Notes under the pieces: generated by a model
Seen by the model: the letters and a program-made list of their open reading frames with translations, nothing else
The model's database searches: none
Told to the model about the DNA's origin: nothing
Shown here: in pieces, positions 31,614-48,451 of the stretch
Layout of the letters: the number at the start of each line of letters is the position of its first letter
How positions within the stretch are numbered: position 1 is the stretch's first letter
Made by a program: the position numbers and the translations under genes
IMG/VR virus record: IMGVR_UViG_3300028394_000036
Span: 113,313-177,312 of that record
Length of the DNA stretch: 64,000 nt
Source: a virus
Strand: one strand, 5' to 3'

Positions 31614-32633
31614 ATGAGTGCAACTTTAGTTGAATATGTATGGCTTGATGGTTACACGCCAGAACCTACTCTTCGTAGTAAAATCAGAGTTTCCGATGGA
31701 GGTTCATCAGAACAATGGTCATTTGATGGTAGTTCTACTAAACAAGCGGAAGGAAACTTTTCAGATTGCATTCTTAATCCAGTAAAACGCTATCATGGAA
31801 CTAATAGAAATGATAAGATATTTGTTTTATGTGAAGTTCTTAACTCAGATAGAACACCACATGAATCGAATGATAGACATAAACTGGATTTTTCCATATA
31901 TTCCTCTTTAGATAATTCTGCGGAATCACCTTGGTTTGGATTTGAACAAGAATATTTTATACGGCAGGGACATAAAAAAAACATATTAGGTTTTGAATCA
32001 AATTATTCAACAGAAAAACAAGGCAAATATTATTGTGGTGTTGGAGGACTTATATTTGGAAGACACTTATCAGATGAACACCTTGAAATGTGTTTGAAAT
32101 ATGGTATAGGTATAGAAGGAACAAACGCTGAAGTTGCTGTTGGTCAATGGGAATATCAAATTTTCGGTAAAGATATTCTTACTGCATCGGACGATTTGTG
32201 GATGTCTAGGTATTTCTTGTTCAAATTGGCAGAAAAATATGGTTATGATATAGAATTACACCCTAAACCACTACAAACTGGTGATTGGAACGGCTCTGGA
32301 CTACATACAAACTTCTCAACCCCAAGAATGCGTGATGTTGGTGGTGATGAATACTTTAATAAAATATTCAAACAATTTGATAAAGATAAAGAAATACACA
32401 TTGCTAACTACGGTTCTGACAACCATTTACGTTTAACTGGCAAGTTTGAAACACAAGATATAAACAAATTTACGTGGGGTATTGCAGATAGGGGTGCTTC
32501 AATACGTATACCAACAGGAACAGCGGAAAATTGGTGTGGATATTTAGAAGATAGAAGGCCAGCTTCAAACGCTAATCCATATAAAGTTACTAAGGTAATA
32601 TTGGATTCTATGTACGAAGTTGATAAAAAATAG
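31614..32633 (+). CDS. Glutamine synthetase, type II (GSII, eukaryote-type)
   Basis: A 339-residue enzyme with the full set of GSII motifs: VEYVWLDG, WSFDGSSTKQA, WFGFEQEYF, GVGG, GIEGTNAEVAVGQWEYQI, GDWNGSGLHTNFST, YGSDNHLRLTGKFET, WGIADRGASIRIP and GYLEDRRPASNANPY. It joins glutamate and ammonia with ATP. GSII forms a decamer in eukaryotes and occurs in some Bacteroidota. Motifs look intact, so the enzyme is probably active. In a phage it would be an auxiliary metabolic gene raising glutamine for nucleotide synthesis. Confidence 0.93.
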   Translation: MSATLVEYVWLDGYTPEPTLRSKIRVSDGGSSEQWSFDGSSTKQAEGNFSDCILNPVKRYHGTNRNDKIFVLCEVLNSDRTPHESNDRHKLDFSIYSSLDNSAESPWFGFEQEYFIRQGHKKNILGFESNYSTEKQGKYYCGVGGLIFGRHLSDEHLEMCLKYGIGIEGTNAEVAVGQWEYQIFGKDILTASDDLWMSRYFLFKLAEKYGYDIELHPKPLQTGDWNGSGLHTNFSTPRMRDVGGDEYFNKIFKQFDKDKEIHIANYGSDNHLRLTGKFETQDINKFTWGIADRGASIRIPTGTAENWCGYLEDRRPASNANPYKVTKVILDSMYEVDKK

Positions 32634-35814: not shown

Positions 35815-35926
35815 TTTATTTCTCTCTTTACACTATAGTTTTACACTACTATTAACATATATATAAATATATAAATACTATAATATTTATACCTATATAC
35901 ATTTTAATGATTATCGAGAATGAGTT

Positions 35927-36082
35927 ATGAGATTGAATGAAGACATTACAGTAAATGGCAATTTAAGTCAGATAGATAATTCACCCCTATACATGATAAA
36001 CGACCTTATCTTCACGAGTGCTGGAGAATGGGAGAAATTAGTCCTTGTGGTGAATAAGCCCGCAACAGAAATAGATGAGTAA
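35927..36082 (+). CDS. Small hypothetical protein (51 aa)
   Basis: A 51-codon frame from the ATG at 35927: MRLNEDITVNGNLSQIDNSP and then LYMINDLIFTSAGEWEKLVLVV. The composition looks like a real protein and resembles short regions of phage fibre proteins. No clear ribosome binding site or promoter is seen, and it stands alone on the plus strand, so it may be a relic. Confidence 0.35.
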   Translation: MRLNEDITVNGNLSQIDNSPLYMINDLIFTSAGEWEKLVLVVNKPATEIDE

Positions 36083-36127
36083 TATTTACCCTTATATGTT
36101 GAACAAGAGTAAATATTTGGTATTTTT

Positions 36128-36160
36128 ACTTGGACACTATGTCCAAGTTATTGTCCAAGT
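36128..36160. repeat. Hairpin with extra half-site
   Basis: ACTTGGACA (36128-36136) and TGTCCAAGT (36140-36148) form a perfect 9-bp stem with a 3-base loop. A further TTGTCCAAGT follows at 36151-36160, allowing two alternative pairings. It could be a protein-binding site or a weak terminator. Confidence 0.75.
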
Positions 36161-36182
36161 CACACAAACCAATGCGGATTTT

Positions 36183-36206
36183 AAAGTGGTCGAATTCCAC
36201 CACTTT
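36183..36206. repeat. Perfect 8-bp inverted repeat
   Basis: AAAGTGGT (36183-36190) and ACCACTTT (36199-36206) around CGAATTCC. No T-run follows on either strand, so a binding site is more likely than a terminator. Confidence 0.7.
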
Positions 36207-36216
36207 ACTTTACCAT

Positions 36217-36285
36217 TTAATGCGGGATATATCATTCATTAAGTCTGTTTTATGGTGTTAATGCGTGATATAACATTCATTAAGT
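36217..36285. repeat. Two 28-base iteron-like direct repeats
   Basis: Copies at 36217-36244 and 36258-36285 differ at two positions and are offset by 41 bases, about four helical turns. Each begins TTAATGCG and ends CATTCATTAAGT, so the ends are inverted (TTAATG/CATTAA). This is the form of a binding site for a dimeric initiator or regulator. Confidence 0.8.
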
Positions 36286-36365
36286 GGGTGTATGCCGAAG
36301 GGTATAAATTCATTTAAGTTTTTCTATAGTAAAAAAATTGACCTCGATAAAAAAACGGATGAGCG

Positions 36366-36492
36366 CGCCACCCCTCACCCCTACTCCCCCTGGCCATTTA
36401 CGTTAAATTGGCCCACCCCCACCCCAGTGATGATTATTGTATAAGCCCGTTTATTTACAATAACTTAGCTTCCCCCACCTACCCCTATATCC
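36366..36492. other. C-rich tract (G-rich on minus strand)
   Basis: Clusters of C-runs (CCCC, CCCC, CCCCC near 36371-36391; CCC-A-CCCCC-A-CCCC near 36411-36425; CCCCC-A-CC-TA-CCCC near 36474-36486) stand out in an AT-rich genome. The minus strand could form G-quadruplexes. No coding frame explains it. Confidence 0.7.
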
Positions 36493-36606
36493 CTATTATT
36501 ATTTCATTTGGTTATTAAATTATCTTTCGTATTTTTGCTGTCAGATTAAACCTGATATAGTTACTATGAAAGATAAATTTATTATATGTACCGATGAAAT
36601 AAATGA

Positions 36607-36638
36607 TTTGGTTAGTATCTAATAATTCCGTATATTTG
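36607..36638 (+). promoter_or_regulatory. Bacteroidota-type promoter in the island
   Basis: TTTG (36607-36610), 20 bases, TATATTTG (36631-36638). It would start an RNA near 36645, just before the nested hairpin. A 47-codon frame from 36650 exists but has no ribosome binding site and runs through the next promoter. Confidence 0.75.
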
Positions 36639-36658
36639 TAGTATAAGAAATGGGGAAG

Positions 36659-36712
36659 GAGATAACGGGTATATATAGAAACCGATTGAAACAATCGTTT
36701 GGAAGTTATCTC
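36659..36712 (+). ncRNA. Candidate structured RNA element (nested hairpin)
   Basis: Outer stem GAGATAAC (36659-36666) with GTTATCTC (36705-36712), and inner stem CGATTG (36683-36688) with CAATCG (36692-36697), loop AAA. It starts about 15 bases after the expected start of the RNA from the promoter at 36607. It could be an RNA leader, decoy or processing site. Its identity is inferred from pairing alone. Confidence 0.45.
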
Positions 36713-36729
36713 AAAATTTCTTATATTTG
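36698..36729 (+). promoter_or_regulatory. Bacteroidota-type promoter in the island (second)
   Basis: TTTG (36698-36701), 20 bases, TATATTTG (36722-36729). The RNA would run from about 36736 to the terminator at 37069 with no good reading frame, so a non-coding RNA of about 330 bases is possible. Confidence 0.75.
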
Positions 36730-36801
36730 TATTATAAATGATTGGTTGATATTTGAACACAGTAGAATGGAAGTAGACAGTAAGTCTCGTTAGTATACTA
36801 T

Positions 36802-36990
36802 AGTATATACTATATAGAAGCAGTAAGTTCTGAAGAGTTCTATTTCATTTCCCAATTTAAACGAGGGTAACTATATAGTAGTTATATAGTATCCATATAG
36901 TATATACTTAACGGTAATACCAAGGGTAAATAAATCAAGGGTAATTACTTAGGGCAACCCTAATGATGTACAGTTAGTATAGTATATACT
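36802..36990. repeat. Three copies of palindrome AGTATATACT
   Basis: Exact copies at 36802-36811, 36899-36908 and 36981-36990. Two extend to TAGTATATACTATA. Further copies lie at 37731-37740 and 22523-22532. The perfect 10-bp symmetry suggests a dimeric binding site, though AT-rich sequence makes some palindromes likely by chance. Confidence 0.65.
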
Positions 36991-37000
36991 ATATACCAAT

Positions 37001-37069
37001 AGAGAATAATGTGCGATGAAGTTACGGTTATAATCCGTCTAGTAGTCAATATCATTATTCTCTTTTTTT
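37001..37069 (+). terminator. Long-stem terminator / end of a possible non-coding RNA
   Basis: AGAGAATAATG (37001-37011) pairs perfectly with CATTATTCTCT (37053-37063), followed by TTTTTTT. The 41-base loop itself contains a small hairpin ACGG/CCGT (37024-37037). This fits the 3' end of an RNA started at 36607 or 36698. Confidence 0.65.
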
Positions 37070-37594
37070 ATTTCAACTCTATGCATGCGTACACTTTTGG
37101 ATACCCTAACACCTCATACATGGAAAACTAGTAATATAAGGCGTGCTGTTCAATGAGACAAGTGCGGCTTCCCACATTACAAATATAACGTATATACATC
37201 CCATAATGAAATTAAATAAATAATTTGTTTAAAATGATAAATAAATTATATCGGAATAACCAAAGGATTTATTTAATTAATAATTTTTATATTACAAAAA
37301 TGCATATTTCATTAGGAAATTACAATGCGCGTAAGCCGTTGAGCTATATAGAGTTACAGAGATGGCAAATGGAAATGAGCGGGCTCACTCAGATTCACCA
37401 CATCTTCCCACTTCAACCCACACCACACTATATATTACCCACAGTATAGATATACATTAACTGGACATTAACTATACACATACTATGTAATAATATTTTA
37501 TTATATGGTAACATGAATGGAGTGAAATTGTACAATAATAGTTATAGGAGTATATTGTGGGTAACATTATCATCACTTATATAGTATATAAACA

Positions 37595-37626
37595 TTTGGA
37601 GTATTAGAATGGAATCATTATATTTG
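37595..37626 (+). promoter_or_regulatory. Bacteroidota-type promoter upstream of TonB receptor block
   Basis: TTTG (37595-37598), 20 bases, TATATTTG (37619-37626). It is the only clear promoter before the genes at 37807 and 38148. It overlaps the start of the small frame at 37609, which weakens that gene call. Confidence 0.7.
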
Positions 37627-37785
37627 CATTGGGAACGTATAGTATTCCTTATACTTACTATTGTATTCTCTATAGTATTCAATATTAGTTATAAGAAAGA
37701 TTGTTTAAGTTGTATTGAAGTAGTAGTAATAGTATATACTATAGTACTGATATTATTTAGTGTACCGTTCGTTTTTTTGAAATGA
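37609..37785 (+). CDS. Possible small membrane protein (58 aa)
   Basis: ATG at 37609 with GGAG 7 bases upstream. The 58 residues contain two hydrophobic segments (IVFLILTIVFSIVFNI and VVVIVYTIVLILFSVPFVFL) split by KKDCLSC. A promoter -7 box lies inside the first codons, so transcription from it would miss the start codon. Either an upstream promoter is used or the frame is not a gene. Confidence 0.35.
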   Translation: MESLYLHWERIVFLILTIVFSIVFNISYKKDCLSCIEVVVIVYTIVLILFSVPFVFLK

Positions 37786-37806
37786 TTTTAGTTTGAGGAA
37801 TTTGAT

Positions 37807-38118
37807 ATGAGTAATACAAGAGTAGTACTTACACAATGGAAGTCAACACATTGGGATGTACTTTGGAGCTATAACTTTACTAAGTTACAATTGGATGAGT
37901 TAGATTCATATACTACTTCATTGGGAAGTAAGTTTAGCGAACCAACTCTATGGGGTTACGCATTCGGTAAAGATTATATTGAATCATTACTCTTGTTCTT
38001 AAAAGAGTATACTAATGATATAACTAACAAGGATGTGGAACTACTTAATAGTATAGTACACTTATTAGTACAATGTTACTACTATCCTACCGCGACTGTT
38101 ATGAATGATGGCAAATGA
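37807..38118 (+). CDS. Hypothetical protein upstream of TonB-dependent receptor
   Basis: A 103-residue soluble protein: MSNTRVVLTQWKSTHWDVLW, then KLQLDELDSYTTSLGSKF and a helical end. No motif known. TTTGAGGAATTTGAT precedes the ATG. It ends 29 bases before the receptor start, so the two are probably co-transcribed. Confidence 0.55.
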   Translation: MSNTRVVLTQWKSTHWDVLWSYNFTKLQLDELDSYTTSLGSKFSEPTLWGYAFGKDYIESLLLFLKEYTNDITNKDVELLNSIVHLLVQCYYYPTATVMNDGK

Positions 38119-38147: not shown

Positions 38148-40916
38148 ATGAAAAAAAGTATGGTGTTCTTATTCATACTATTGAGTTTATTGAATAGTGT
38201 GATTGGAAAAGGTGTTGGTGTTCTTAGTGGTATGGTAAAGAATAAAGAAACAGGCGAACTTATTCGTTCTGCTACTATTCGTATTAAAGGAACTAAGTGG
38301 GGAAGCCAATCTGATGTTAAAGGTAAATTTATTATTAAAGGAATTCCGTCTGATTCTTTGTTTACTGTTAGATGTTCTTTCGTTGGCTATAGAACTATTG
38401 AGATTGATTCTATTTTAGTTACCGATGGAGAAATGAAAACATTGGATCTTTTACTTGAAGAACAAGTAAGTAAAACAGATGAAGTAATAGTTGAAGTAAG
38501 ACGTTCTACGGAAAGCCAATCTACTGTATTAGCCCAACGTAGAAATGCTGCTAATGTTTCGGATGGTATTTCTAAAGAAGAAATAACGAAGTCAAGTGAT
38601 GGTGATGCAGGACAAGCTCTAAAGCGTGTTTCGGGTGTTACATTAGTAGGTGATAAGTTTATTTATGTACGTGGTGTAAGTGATCGTTACAACACTACGA
38701 CATTAAACGGAGCTACACTTGCGACGACTGAGTCTGACAAACGTTCCTTCGCCTTCGATATGTTTCCATCCGAGTTCCTACAATCCGCAACCGTTACTAA
38801 ATCGTTTACACCAGACTTGCCAGGTAATTTTGTTGGTGGTTTAGTTCAATTAAATACTATTGATTTTCCCGATGGGTTTTCATTAAAGGTAAACATTTCA
38901 TCTGCCTTTAATACTAATACTACATTGCAAGATAACTCATTCTCTATTGGTGGTATACCGACTCGACTTCCAAGTAGTACACCGTCTTCTCGTAAAGAAA
39001 TGGATAAGTTAATACGGGATGCTTATGCAGGTGTTGAAGACGCACAGGATAAATTACAAGGATTTGGTAGAGACTTGAAATCAACTTCTTGGAAACAAGA
39101 TAGTATAACAGCCAATCCAAATACAAGCACTAACATTTCATACACAAACATATTCGATGTGTTCGATAATGAGTTGGGTATTATTGGTTCGGTATTCTAT
39201 AACAATACATTCTCTATTAAAACCGCAGGTGATAGAAACACAACATTGGGTGATGGTTCTTATGAGCGTATAAGTTCTGGCAAGGTTTCAAATGAATCTA
39301 TCAATTCCGGTGGTATGGTAAACGTAGCATATAAAATAGGTTCAAATCATTCTTTATCTATTAAGAACATTATCAATAAATCATTTGACTTGGAAGTTCT
39401 TAATCTAAGTGGTACAGACTCTACACAAGGTATTGACTTCAAACAATATTCTTCTCAATACTTAGAGAAGAGTTTGGTTTCTTCACAAATTGGTGGTGAA
39501 CATACATTACCGATTCAAAACATATTATTGGATTGGAGAATTGGTTATTCACATTCAGATAGAAATGAGCCAGACTTCCGTAGACTTAGATATTCAAGAC
39601 AATCGACTTCACCTGATTTACCGTTCATTGCGGATATACAACCGATGGGTGATGGTACACTTGCTGGTAGATTCTTTTCAGAACTTACCGATGAAGTTAT
39701 AAACGGTGGATTGAACATAACGATACCGATGAGTACAACGTTCAAAATCAAAGTAGGTGGTATAACTGAAATGCGGGATAGAGGATTTTTAGCACGTTCA
39801 TTCGCCATTGCTTCAAATGATGCTGCGGGATTACTTGGTACTGATTTCTATGCAGGTTCACCTGATGTTATATTTGATTCAAAGAACTTTGATAGAGTAG
39901 GTGATACGTTATACATACGTGAGGATTCAAAACCAAGTGATGGGTATTCTGGAACAGAAACACTTTATGCTGGTTACAGTATGGTTGACTTTGGGATTGG
40001 AGATTTCCGTATAATAACTGGAGTTAGATTAGAAGATAATAAAATTCAATTGAATGGCTTCTATTCAAACGGTATTGTAGCAAATATAGATTACCATACA
40101 TTTGATATTTTACCAGCACTTAACTTGATATACAAACTTGGTGACAATACAAACATTCGTAGTTCCGCTTCTCAAACACTTACACGCCCTACGTTCCGTG
40201 AGTTAGCACCCTTTGAGTTTTATAACTTCAATGACTTGGTTGTGGTACGTGGAAACACAGGACTACAACGAACACTCGTTCAAAACTATGATTTGAGATT
40301 TGAAACATTTATGAGCAGTAACGAGGTTTTTTCGATAGGTGGTTTTTTTAAATCGTTTGTTAATCCGATAGAAGAAACTCTAAGTGGCGAGACAGGTGGT
40401 AAGCCAGATAGAACTTGGCAGAACTCAAACGGTGTTGCTACTAATTGGGGAGCTGAAATAGAACTGCGTAAAACCATTGGTGATTTTCTGTTCAGTACAA
40501 ATGTATCGCTTGTTAATTCACAGATAACAATAAGTCAAGGTAACAATACCGAAACAAGAACTATGTGGGGTCAGTCACCATATTCTATAAACTGTGGTTT
40601 ATATTATACGAATGTAGATTTAGGAACTTCGGTGAATGTATCGTATAACCGAGTTGGTAGAAGAATAGTATCGGTTACACAGTTAGGTCGCTTCCCTACA
40701 TTAGAAGTTGATGGTAGTTCACCACACTGGTATGAAGAACCAAGAGACTTAGTAGATATTACAATAACAAAAAACATACTAAAAGGATTCGATTGTAAGG
40801 TTACGGTAAAAGATATTCTTAACCAAACTCTATATTGGAAGCAAGGTGATAGAATTGTTCAATCGAATGTATTTGGAACAACAGCGAGTATTTCTTTAAG
40901 CTATAAATTGTTTTAA
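38148..40916 (+). CDS. TonB-dependent outer-membrane receptor
   Basis: A 922-residue protein from the ATG at 38148. Signal peptide MKKSMVFLFILLSLLNSVIG; CarboxypepD_reg-like domain at about 24-110 (VLSGMVKNKETGELIRSATIRIKG, then GTKWGSQSDVKGKFIIKGIP); plug domain with DGISKEEITKSSDGDAGQAL, KRVSGVTLVGDKFIYVRG and DRYNTTTLNGATL; then a beta barrel ending in YKLF, an outer-membrane sorting signal with terminal Phe. The frame is intact and codon use looks like its neighbours. Such receptors import siderophores, vitamins or glycans with TonB energy. A complete copy in a phage is very unusual. Ligand unknown. Confidence 0.93.
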   Translation: MKKSMVFLFILLSLLNSVIGKGVGVLSGMVKNKETGELIRSATIRIKGTKWGSQSDVKGKFIIKGIPSDSLFTVRCSFVGYRTIEIDSILVTDGEMKTLDLLLEEQVSKTDEVIVEVRRSTESQSTVLAQRRNAANVSDGISKEEITKSSDGDAGQALKRVSGVTLVGDKFIYVRGVSDRYNTTTLNGATLATTESDKRSFAFDMFPSEFLQSATVTKSFTPDLPGNFVGGLVQLNTIDFPDGFSLKVNISSAFNTNTTLQDNSFSIGGIPTRLPSSTPSSRKEMDKLIRDAYAGVEDAQDKLQGFGRDLKSTSWKQDSITANPNTSTNISYTNIFDVFDNELGIIGSVFYNNTFSIKTAGDRNTTLGDGSYERISSGKVSNESINSGGMVNVAYKIGSNHSLSIKNIINKSFDLEVLNLSGTDSTQGIDFKQYSSQYLEKSLVSSQIGGEHTLPIQNILLDWRIGYSHSDRNEPDFRRLRYSRQSTSPDLPFIADIQPMGDGTLAGRFFSELTDEVINGGLNITIPMSTTFKIKVGGITEMRDRGFLARSFAIASNDAAGLLGTDFYAGSPDVIFDSKNFDRVGDTLYIREDSKPSDGYSGTETLYAGYSMVDFGIGDFRIITGVRLEDNKIQLNGFYSNGIVANIDYHTFDILPALNLIYKLGDNTNIRSSASQTLTRPTFRELAPFEFYNFNDLVVVRGNTGLQRTLVQNYDLRFETFMSSNEVFSIGGFFKSFVNPIEETLSGETGGKPDRTWQNSNGVATNWGAEIELRKTIGDFLFSTNVSLVNSQITISQGNNTETRTMWGQSPYSINCGLYYTNVDLGTSVNVSYNRVGRRIVSVTQLGRFPTLEVDGSSPHWYEEPRDLVDITITKNILKGFDCKVTVKDILNQTLYWKQGDRIVQSNVFGTTASISLSYKLF

Positions 40917-40940: not shown

Positions 40941-40977
40941 AAAAAGAAAAGGTGAGTAGAAATACTCACCTTTTTTA
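40941..40977. terminator. Bidirectional terminator between receptor and endolysin genes
   Basis: AAAAGGTGAGTA (40947-40958) and TACTCACCTTTT (40963-40974) form a perfect 12-bp stem with a GAAA loop, T-runs on both strands. It serves convergent genes. Confidence 0.92.
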
Positions 40978-41610
40978 TTATCGTTGATCGAGAAGTGCAA
41001 AGTCTGTTATACGGAAATAATCGTATGGGTTTATGGTTCTTTTACGAGACCAGACGCCACCACCACTCCATTGACTTCCACTCTTTCCAGATGATGTATT
41101 TCCTTCAATAGTTGTTCCGCTGTTACCCTGCCATTTGTCAGTAAATCCAACATGGCCGAATAAGGTTGCACCACGTCTCCAAACTAAAACTGTACCAACC
41201 GGTATCTTCATATTCTCAAACGATACTTTTGTTGCTTTAATAGTTTTGTTTTTGGTTATGAAATGTCTAGCTAATCCAGAACGAGTTTTCATTGTAGTAA
41301 CCTTTGCAGAATCAAGAACGAATGAAACAAATGCTGCACACCATTGGTTGCCTTTTGTTAATCCTACTGATTTTAAAAAACGCTCAACCCAATATCCACC
41401 ATTGTCTCCGACTTCTTTTGTACCAACTAATCCATAAGCAATACTTCGTACACGCTCATCATCAGTTTGTTTAACTACCGATAGTTTCTTCTCACAGCTT
41501 GAACATAAACTATCAGTTTTTTTAACTGTTTGAGAAGCAGAGTGCAGCGGTAAGGATGTTAGCAAACATCCAAATAGCGTAAGCAACAGGATTTGATGCA
41601 AGTATCTCAC
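40978..41610 (-). CDS. Secreted CHAP-like endolysin/amidase
   Basis: A 210-residue protein from a GTG at 41608-41610 with AGGAGGT 8 bases upstream, the strongest SD in the window, which decides this start. It has a signal peptide (MRYLHQILLLTLFGCLLTSLPLHS). The catalytic Cys lies in GNQWCAAFVSFVLD, His in LFGHVGFTD and the supporting Asn in TIEGNTSSG: CHAP/NlpC-type. The substrate would be peptidoglycan peptide cross-links. Its start lies inside the holin gene (89-base overlap), forming a lysis cassette. Confidence 0.85.
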   Translation of the reverse strand: MRYLHQILLLTLFGCLLTSLPLHSASQTVKKTDSLCSSCEKKLSVVKQTDDERVRSIAYGLVGTKEVGDNGGYWVERFLKSVGLTKGNQWCAAFVSFVLDSAKVTTMKTRSGLARHFITKNKTIKATKVSFENMKIPVGTVLVWRRGATLFGHVGFTDKWQGNSGTTIEGNTSSGKSGSQWSGGGVWSRKRTINPYDYFRITDFALLDQR

Positions 41611-42134: not shown

Positions 42135-42614
42135 TTACATCATTCTAAAATAGTGACCGTTTGATTCGGAATAATCATACATAAGTTCTTTAGCAGTGCT
42201 TTCCCAATCAATATGAATATAACCTGGTAAGTCGTTCGGTATCTCTCCAAGTTGTTCACATAAGTCTCGTGCAAACTCTGCATCACTAGCAAATTGACCA
42301 GAGTATGCTTCATCTACATTGCAATATTGAACATCACAATTACGTGCCGCTTCCCAAATATCCATGTCATCATAGTGACTATTAGGATAATTCTCAATGA
42401 AATCTTCCAAGTCATCAGGACTTAAAAAGTATGGTAAATCAGAGTAATCAATTTGAATATCATTCTTATCAATCAATTCATAATCCTCAATACTATTGTT
42501 TTCTGCAATTTCTAAGAATGCATCTTTAATATCATCTGAGGTGAAACAGCTATCGTCAATAGTAATCGATGCTGTAAATAATGATGGTTTGTGACTTACT
42601 GATACTTCAAACAT
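42135..42614 (-). CDS. ArdA-like antirestriction protein
   Basis: A 159-residue, very acidic protein. The C-terminal half matches the ArdA signature: DEAYSGQFASDAEFARDLCEQLGEIPNDLP, followed by GYIHIDWESTAKELMYDY and GHYFR. ArdA mimics B-form DNA with its acidic surface and blocks type I restriction enzymes. The N-terminal domain is divergent and shorter than in plasmid ArdA. A host-type promoter with the shared leader directly upstream fits early expression, when defence against restriction matters most. Confidence 0.72.
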   Translation of the reverse strand: MFEVSVSHKPSLFTASITIDDSCFTSDDIKDAFLEIAENNSIEDYELIDKNDIQIDYSDLPYFLSPDDLEDFIENYPNSHYDDMDIWEAARNCDVQYCNVDEAYSGQFASDAEFARDLCEQLGEIPNDLPGYIHIDWESTAKELMYDYSESNGHYFRMM

Positions 42615-44963: not shown

Positions 44964-46936
<1,973 letters not shown>

Positions 46937-47863: not shown

Positions 47864-48397
47864 TTAGTGTTCTTTAACTGGTTGTCCTGCAACAACTTGT
47901 TTAATAACTTCGTATAATTTATCTTCATCGCCAGGTGCATAAGAATTATGCTGCCATACTACTTTTCCATTTCCATCTATCAAGAATGCGTGTGGAACAT
48001 TATTTACATTCATTGCTCTTTTTAAGTCACCATTTTCATCAAGATATACTTCATATTCCCAACGTTTTCCATTGATAAATGGTGCAACTTTAGCAGAATT
48101 ACGAACATCATCAACTGAAATTGCAACAACTTTAACTCCAGTAGCATCTCTCCACTCATCATATACATTACTTATATTTGTTAATTCTTGAATACAAGGT
48201 TTGCACCATGAAGCCCAGAAGTTTAACAAAATGGGTTTTCCATTATTAGTGATTGAACTAGCATTAATTTTTTCTCCCTTAATATTTTTTATCGAGGCAG
48301 ACGGAATTACTGCTTTTGTAGAATCAGATACTTGAGCGTGAATTGATGACAAAGAAATAATCATCAATAATGAAATGAAGAATAAGAAGACTTTCAT
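47864..48397 (-). CDS. Exported TlpA-like thioredoxin
   Basis: A 177-residue protein from the ATG at 48395-48397, with a signal peptide (MKVFLFFISLLMIISLSSIHAQ). The thioredoxin-fold active site is NFWASWCKPCIQEL. KVVAISVDDVRNSAKVAPF and NVNNVPHAFLIDGNGKVVWQ complete the TlpA/ResA pattern, with cis-Pro in VPHAF. It would reduce disulfides outside the cytoplasm. A second TlpA-like protein is at 57551. Such proteins are abundant in Bacteroidota and rare in phages. Confidence 0.88.
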   Translation of the reverse strand: MKVFLFFISLLMIISLSSIHAQVSDSTKAVIPSASIKNIKGEKINASSITNNGKPILLNFWASWCKPCIQELTNISNVYDEWRDATGVKVVAISVDDVRNSAKVAPFINGKRWEYEVYLDENGDLKRAMNVNNVPHAFLIDGNGKVVWQHNSYAPGDEDKLYEVIKQVVAGQPVKEH

Positions 48398-48451
48398 GGT
48401 GATTTCCAATATTTACAAATATTTACAAGGCAATCTAGTGTTTAATTTATT

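Follow-up and report, generated by a model that had tools for sequence, protein, structure and literature searches.

A T4-like phage with a TonB-dependent receptor, probably of a phosphate-linked bacterial type, and its possible role in phosphorus acquisition

TonB-dependent receptors (TBDTs) commonly serve as receptors for phages, and a phage genome that encodes one of its own raises the question of where the gene came from and what it might do during infection. Such a gene lies in IMG/VR record IMGVR_UViG_3300028394_000036, within a stretch of 64,000 nucleotides (positions 113,313 to 177,312 of the record) that is called the window below and to which coordinates refer unless another contig or locus is named. 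A previous sequence-only reading had offered three roles for the gene, namely the replacement of a receptor lost at infection, the feeding of the infected cell and the blocking of superinfection. Here, these roles are weighed against the ancestry of the receptor and the surroundings of its bacterial relatives. The features of the locus are as follows.

37457..37472, + strand: TTAACTGGACATTAAC, an exact TTAACN6TTAAC, possible degenerate Pho box
37595..37626, + strand: host-type (Bacteroidota) promoter TTTG-N20-TATATTTG, ahead of the 103-aa ORF and the receptor
37807..38118, + strand: 103-aa ORF, family unassigned, directly upstream of the receptor (ORF list)
38148..40916, + strand: TBDT of 922 aa (ORF, Pfam, AlphaFold, PDB fold matches)
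38148..38216, + strand: N-terminal signal peptide (MKKSMVFLFILLSLLNSVIGKG...), from the sequence and a model helix at residues 2-18; boundary approximate
38223..38492, + strand: CarboxypepD_reg-like domain, residues 26-115 (Pfam)
38547..38810, + strand: Plug domain, residues 134-221 (Pfam)
38883..40913, + strand: beta-barrel, residues 246-922 (Pfam, AlphaFold, PDB fold matches)
40945..40976, + strand: strong intrinsic terminator with a 14-bp stem (-18.4 kcal/mol, z -7.1)

The receptor gene and the phage that carries it

The reading frame is uninterrupted from the ATG at 38148 (an alternative in-frame start is the ATG at 38115) to the stop at 40914-40916, and the protein begins with a hydrophobic signal and ends in ...SYKLF. 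Its Pfam matches, CarbopepD_reg_2 (2.2e-15), Plug (1.6e-9) and TonB_dep_Rec_b-barrel (9.2e-18), each exceed the curated cut-off, and AlphaFold, given an alignment of the receptor with bacterial homologues, models a beta-barrel with a mean pLDDT of 69.9 and with the plug at low confidence. The best PDB fold matches listed for this model are TonB-dependent transporters throughout; among solved structures, those nearest to it transport iron, haem, PQQ and copper and resemble it in fold only, and a phmmer search of the receptor against the PDB gave no match. The best NCBIfam model is TIGR01782 (TonB-Xanth-Caul), with 217.5 bits and an E value of 3.4e-64, below its cut-off of 310. Additionally, a DEVIVEV-like stretch stands where the TonB box is expected, and the region flanking it is conserved. 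The protein thus shows the signal peptide, plug domain, large beta-barrel and C-terminal aromatic residue that characterise TBDTs, and the frame, the Pfam domains and the modelled barrel bear out its description as an intact receptor from signal peptide to terminal Phe.

The host-type promoter and strong terminator that had been noticed around the gene are likewise found, as TTTG-N20-TATATTTG at 37595-37626 and as a hairpin of -18.4 kcal/mol at 40945-40976, the pattern of which matches the opposite strand too. As the stop of the 103-aa ORF overlaps the in-frame ATG at 38115 (ATGA), this ORF and the receptor probably form one operon, and they are likely to be on the same transcript. The ~2 kb before the operon (35815-37806) contain no long ORFs, many TATAGTATATACTA-like repeats and four consensus host-type promoters on the + strand, and may possibly be a non-coding RNA or control region. 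On the other side, an endolysin-like and an anti-restriction (ArdA-like) protein adjoin the receptor (40978-41610 and 42135-42614); the endolysin gene of relatives occupies a different place in the gene order.

The record of this large freshwater phage has 177,312 bp, and a terminal overlap of ~136 bp at 98.5% points to a genome that is closed and close to complete. Its products include a T4-type portal (gp20), a gp23 capsid protein, a sheath, a terminase and a DNA polymerase B (PolB), and from this T4-like gene set we infer a lytic lifestyle. The contig derives from a metagenome, where an assembly chimera or cellular contamination could place a bacterial gene in a phage. A second IMG/VR contig (3300027963_000106, 48,179 bp), however, spans window positions 5453-53631 and matches the phage without a mismatch over the >45 kb compared, including at least 10 kb on either side of the receptor gene, though both may come from one sample. 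The codon usage of the receptor lies at a distance of 0.094 from that of the phage, within the range of other long phage genes, vs 0.139-0.161 from the host, and its promoter type is common to the rest of the window, where 30 TTG-N18-21-TANNTTTG sites were observed and 9.1 expected. Because of the mismatch-free second contig and the phage-like codon usage, a chimera or contamination is very unlikely indeed and was rejected; the same two observations largely answer the sequence-only reading's own concern that the region might be a chimeric assembly. It is near certain that the receptor is an intact phage gene.

Other features of the genome were also observed. An N-terminus like M(I)KLKDLLKE recurs in several phage proteins (32699-33271, 33299-33895, 33874-34818, 34811-35455, 42743-43390 and 51958-53385, and L002:11367-11873), in some of which an ADP-ribosyltransferase-like YHGS motif (ART-PolyVal, weak) comes after it; these are possibly internal proteins akin to T4 Alt that carry a capsid-targeting leader and are packaged. 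There are also further host-like genes, coding for glutamine synthetase (widespread among viral contigs), GroEL/GroES, a TlpA-like thioredoxin and S-adenosylmethionine synthetase (31614-32633, 44964-46936 and 47864-48409, and L002:11855-13024).

Bacterial relatives of the receptor

A scan of genome contigs with the receptor gave 18 loci, mostly labelled as Kapaibacterium, Ignavibacteria or Chlorobiota MAGs, seven of them 62-69% identical to the phage receptor, and the closest cellular homologues match it over the full length. In a tree with host receptors, a check that had been suggested from the sequence, the phage copy nests inside a freshwater Kapabacteriales clade of seven rows with an SH-aLRT of 100 (50 receptors in total); several members are labelled as lake-derived, and the exact branch position of the phage copy within the clade is poorly supported. 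Within the order, an orthologue (E<=1e-100) is present in 89 of 123 genomes, as exactly one copy in 86 of those 89. Judged by these relationships, the gene came to a T4-like phage from a freshwater host of Kapabacteriales type and is a host-derived gene maintained in a virus genome, as expected of viral auxiliary metabolic genes. The phage tRNA-Glu reaches 94% identity with tRNAs of Kapabacteriales, which is compatible with such a host but weak evidence; together with the donor of the receptor, it would point to Kapabacteriales as the group that the phage infects.

Of 229 residues that do not vary among 14 bacterial homologues, the phage copy retains 206. Relative to the hosts, conservation is highest in the TonB-box/plug region (0.88) and lowest in the CarboxypepD_reg-like domain (0.54), and in the barrel it amounts to 0.819 for loops vs 0.823 for strands. 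A few host-invariant segments have been lost, including short deletions in the barrel region (19 near-host-invariant columns). When compared with the single-copy TBDTs that Kapabacteriales encode beside a T9SS beta-helix protein (e.g., L009, L010, L019 and L142), the phage receptor has the same domains, falls in the same clade and is 63-69% identical, but it is ~20-55 residues shorter, has no partner gene and is not preceded by a clear Pho-type box.

The sequence-only reading had called such receptors rare in phages, and this rarity is borne out, although the case is not unprecedented, as TBDTs have been described in two megaphages (PMC9723777). By tblastn, 7 of 50,697 phage records contain the receptor family, and LR745206 alone among these seven is clearly a phage; the human-gut "Bacteriophage sp." matches (MT838075, MT837092 and others) are unannotated records of 5-17 kb that may be bacterial, and they were not counted. 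Pattern scans of IMG/VR, for which the receptor or its alignment served as query and which are insensitive to distant relatives, returned only the twin contig, and none of 40 related or large phage records has a Plug domain. No sister phage with the receptor was found among the records searched, where the close sister G001 is uninformative, its contig ending before the receptor locus. What is new here is the identity of the receptor as a phosphate-linked type, phage TBDTs as such having been reported already (PMC9723777).

This identity derives from the bacterial loci. All 20 Kapabacteriales loci examined have, immediately downstream of the receptor, a gene for a secreted beta-helix partner, which has one to four copies of a beta-helix-like domain and, in those tested, a T9SS tail; the beta-helix reading is based on its repeat pattern and on the fact that the F. 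johnsoniae FI/FII proteins are annotated as pectin-lyase-like. The number of copies differs among close relatives, from a single one in L009 and L011 to tandems of up to four similar domains of ~550 aa (L019:10899-17846 and L010:10914-17867). No SusD-type lipoprotein was seen next to the receptor when neighbouring ORFs at the bacterial loci were inspected by eye and partly with Pfam, the constant neighbour being the beta-helix protein. A homologue of this partner is present in 194 of 297 Bacteroidota genomes, and none was detected in the phage at E<=1.

Twenty partner loci were taken outside the order's best-matching set, and 18 of them gave a full-length receptor for the tree. Genes of the pst/phoU/phoBR/pit/ACR3 group lie within 18 kb of the pair in 9 of these 20 Bacteroidota loci vs 0 of 20 control regions drawn from the same genomes, a count that is biased upwards because the reference proteins came partly from those loci; without the donor loci, it is 3 of 14 (L123, L125 and L134). 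The neighbours of the pair are the following.

pst/phoU operons: L123, L126, L129
phoBR: L134, L137, L139
PstS-type proteins: L122, L125
ACR3: L136

PstS, PstB, PhoU and ACR3 at these loci are above the NCBIfam equivalog cut-offs, while PhoB and PhoR have their own NCBIfam models among the best matches, yet below cut-off. Additionally, among the four loci most closely related to the phage copy, two (L142 and L143) have arsC and/or ACR3 next to the pair.

A further link is found upstream of the bacterial receptor genes (L120-L159), in the form of a tandem repeat with an 11-bp period, ~[CG][GT]TAACATTnn, which is often followed by a TAnTTTTG-type -7 element. With a score of >12, this box is present in 43 of 47 receptor upstreams vs 1 of 279 control upstreams. 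The matrix was trained without the nearest clade of the phage, and six of the eight near relatives held out in this way score 15-22, the remaining two (L011 and L141) only ~7. The box also scores 19.4 at the porin/pst operon of L129 and at PstS of L123. An 11-bp period is typical of PhoB-type sites, and PhoB would be the protein expected to bind here. The repeat unit is similar to PyTTAAPyPyT/A, the cyanobacterial Pho box given in PMC10976474, and the tandem box, common to receptors and pst operons, is a candidate Pho box for Bacteroidota. Taken together, the phage receptor very probably belongs to this phosphate-linked TBDT/beta-helix group.

The phage's own upstream region seems to differ. 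The TTAACN6TTAAC at 37457, which prompted the discovery of the host box, is the only exact copy in the phage genome (simulation P 0.003-0.018), and under the host matrix it scores 7.0 and ranks 107 of 363,706 positions; the best-scoring site upstream of the receptor reaches 9.6. Since the held-out host matrix scores the site at 37457 like chance sites, a phage Pho box is not claimed there. Host-grade Pho control of the phage receptor is not evident, and the consensus host-type promoter is the likelier driver of its transcription.

Possible roles during infection

We consider it probable (about 0.6) that the receptor gene is an auxiliary one, whose product serves phosphorus acquisition at the outer membrane during infection. 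Of the three roles offered previously, the feeding of the infected cell is thus favoured, and in the direction of phosphorus, because orthologous receptors have an ElpS/FI-like beta-helix protein as partner, show linkage to pst/pho/ars genes and stand behind a Pho-type box; the observations neither support nor refute receptor replacement or the blocking of superinfection. In the proposed mechanism, the phage would transcribe its own receptor copy from the host-type promoter, outside tight Pho control, and the signal peptide would direct the product to the outer membrane, where host TonB-ExbBD would energise it. The receptor might then import, with the host's beta-helix partner, the phosphorus source handled by the host's own pair and in this way sustain the nucleotide supply for DNA replication as host expression drops. 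Expression timing, transport activity, substrate and benefit to the phage are all inferred in this scheme, and the phosphorus specificity of the bacterial pair is suggested by genomic linkage and by analogy with two published systems.

Other readings have been weighed against the same evidence. Uptake of a different nutrient, such as a carbohydrate or an iron chelate, would agree with the published interpretation of the related genes of Mar_Mega_1 and LR745206 as SusC (PMC9723777), and TBDT substrates are hard to predict from sequence, the nearest structures being diverse transporters that share only the fold. Nevertheless, the constant partner in bacterial loci is a beta-helix protein and not SusD, and the pst/pho/ars linkage and Pho-type box of the bacterial members speak for phosphorus, which makes another nutrient rather unlikely. 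Superinfection exclusion or receptor interference, where the phage protein would compete with or mask the host TBDTs that other phages use or alter surface receptors after infection, would suit a protein class that phages commonly use for entry, and the few host-invariant segments lost, including the barrel-region deletions, might be read in its favour. The barrel loops of the phage protein, by contrast, have changed no more than its strands, and conservation peaks in the TonB-box/plug region, on which energised transport depends. These conserved transport parts therefore count against a decoy, which could do without them, and such a role is, on balance, unlikely. The restriction of the receptor to this phage and its identical twin contig, with no Plug domain in the 40 related or large phage records, would also be expected of a neutral or transient passenger that brings the phage no benefit. 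However, full length at ~65% identity to hosts, retention of 90% of the invariant residues and phage codon usage indicate long residence without decay, and so a passenger is decidedly improbable.

If phosphorus acquisition is the role of the receptor, viral control of phosphorus supply would move to the outer membrane, the site of phage adsorption and bacteriocin entry, whereas known viral phosphorus genes (e.g., cyanophage PstS) act in the periplasm or cytoplasm. It would also offer an alternative reading, phosphorus instead of sugars, for the published megaphage "SusC", and the receptor would name the likely host group of an uncultured phage. Moreover, the Pho-type box and the widespread Bacteroidota TBDT/beta-helix pair are now described and open to tests in laboratory strains.

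Comparison with known systems

Two cellular systems resemble the bacterial pair by their published descriptions. The F. johnsoniae PUSIII consists of the pectin-lyase-like FI lipoprotein Fjoh_3856 and the TBDT Fjoh_3857; both are strongly induced under phosphate depletion, FI being the most induced gene (PMC8115612). It thus shares a TBDT with a beta-helix/pectin-lyase-like surface protein and a link to phosphate but, unlike the phage gene, it is cellular, retains the partner and rises in expression when phosphate is depleted. Caulobacter secretes ElpS (CC0170) under phosphate starvation, and the TBDT CC0171, which is constitutive and whose role is undecided, adjoins it (PMC2996285). The adjacency of a secreted protein and a TBDT is as in the bacterial orthologue loci, and TIGR01782 TonB-Xanth-Caul is the best model of the phage receptor; however, the match is below cut-off, and ElpS/CC0171 is proteobacterial, with ElpS released by type II secretion.

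Among phages, the TBDTs of the megaphages Mar_Mega_1 and LR745206 were published as SusC, with a suggested role in carbohydrate uptake (PMC9723777). LR745206 (LR745206.1, 634.8 kb) encodes at L051:6704-10544 a beta-helix lipoprotein and TBDT pair, the lipoprotein standing just before the receptor and being 39% identical to the Kapabacteriales partner. Like our phage it has its own TBDT, a 24% relative of the receptor studied here, but it is an unrelated phage, its receptor forms a separate, long branch that points to an independent capture, and it has the whole pair and not the receptor alone. A broader and more tentative proposal, to which we give somewhat less than even odds, is that unrelated large Bacteroidota phages independently captured the phosphate-starvation outer-membrane arm, the TBDT alone or together with its beta-helix partner, with this phage freeing the TBDT from host Pho control for phosphorus import into infected cells. 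A functional parallel may be cyanophage PstS, a host-derived phosphorus-uptake gene of T4-like phages (PMC10976474). Both genes are host-derived and carried by T4-like phages, and the role of PstS in phosphorus uptake is the one proposed for the receptor, but PstS is periplasmic and controlled by host PhoBR, whereas the phage receptor is a TBDT of the outer membrane and has no clear Pho box.
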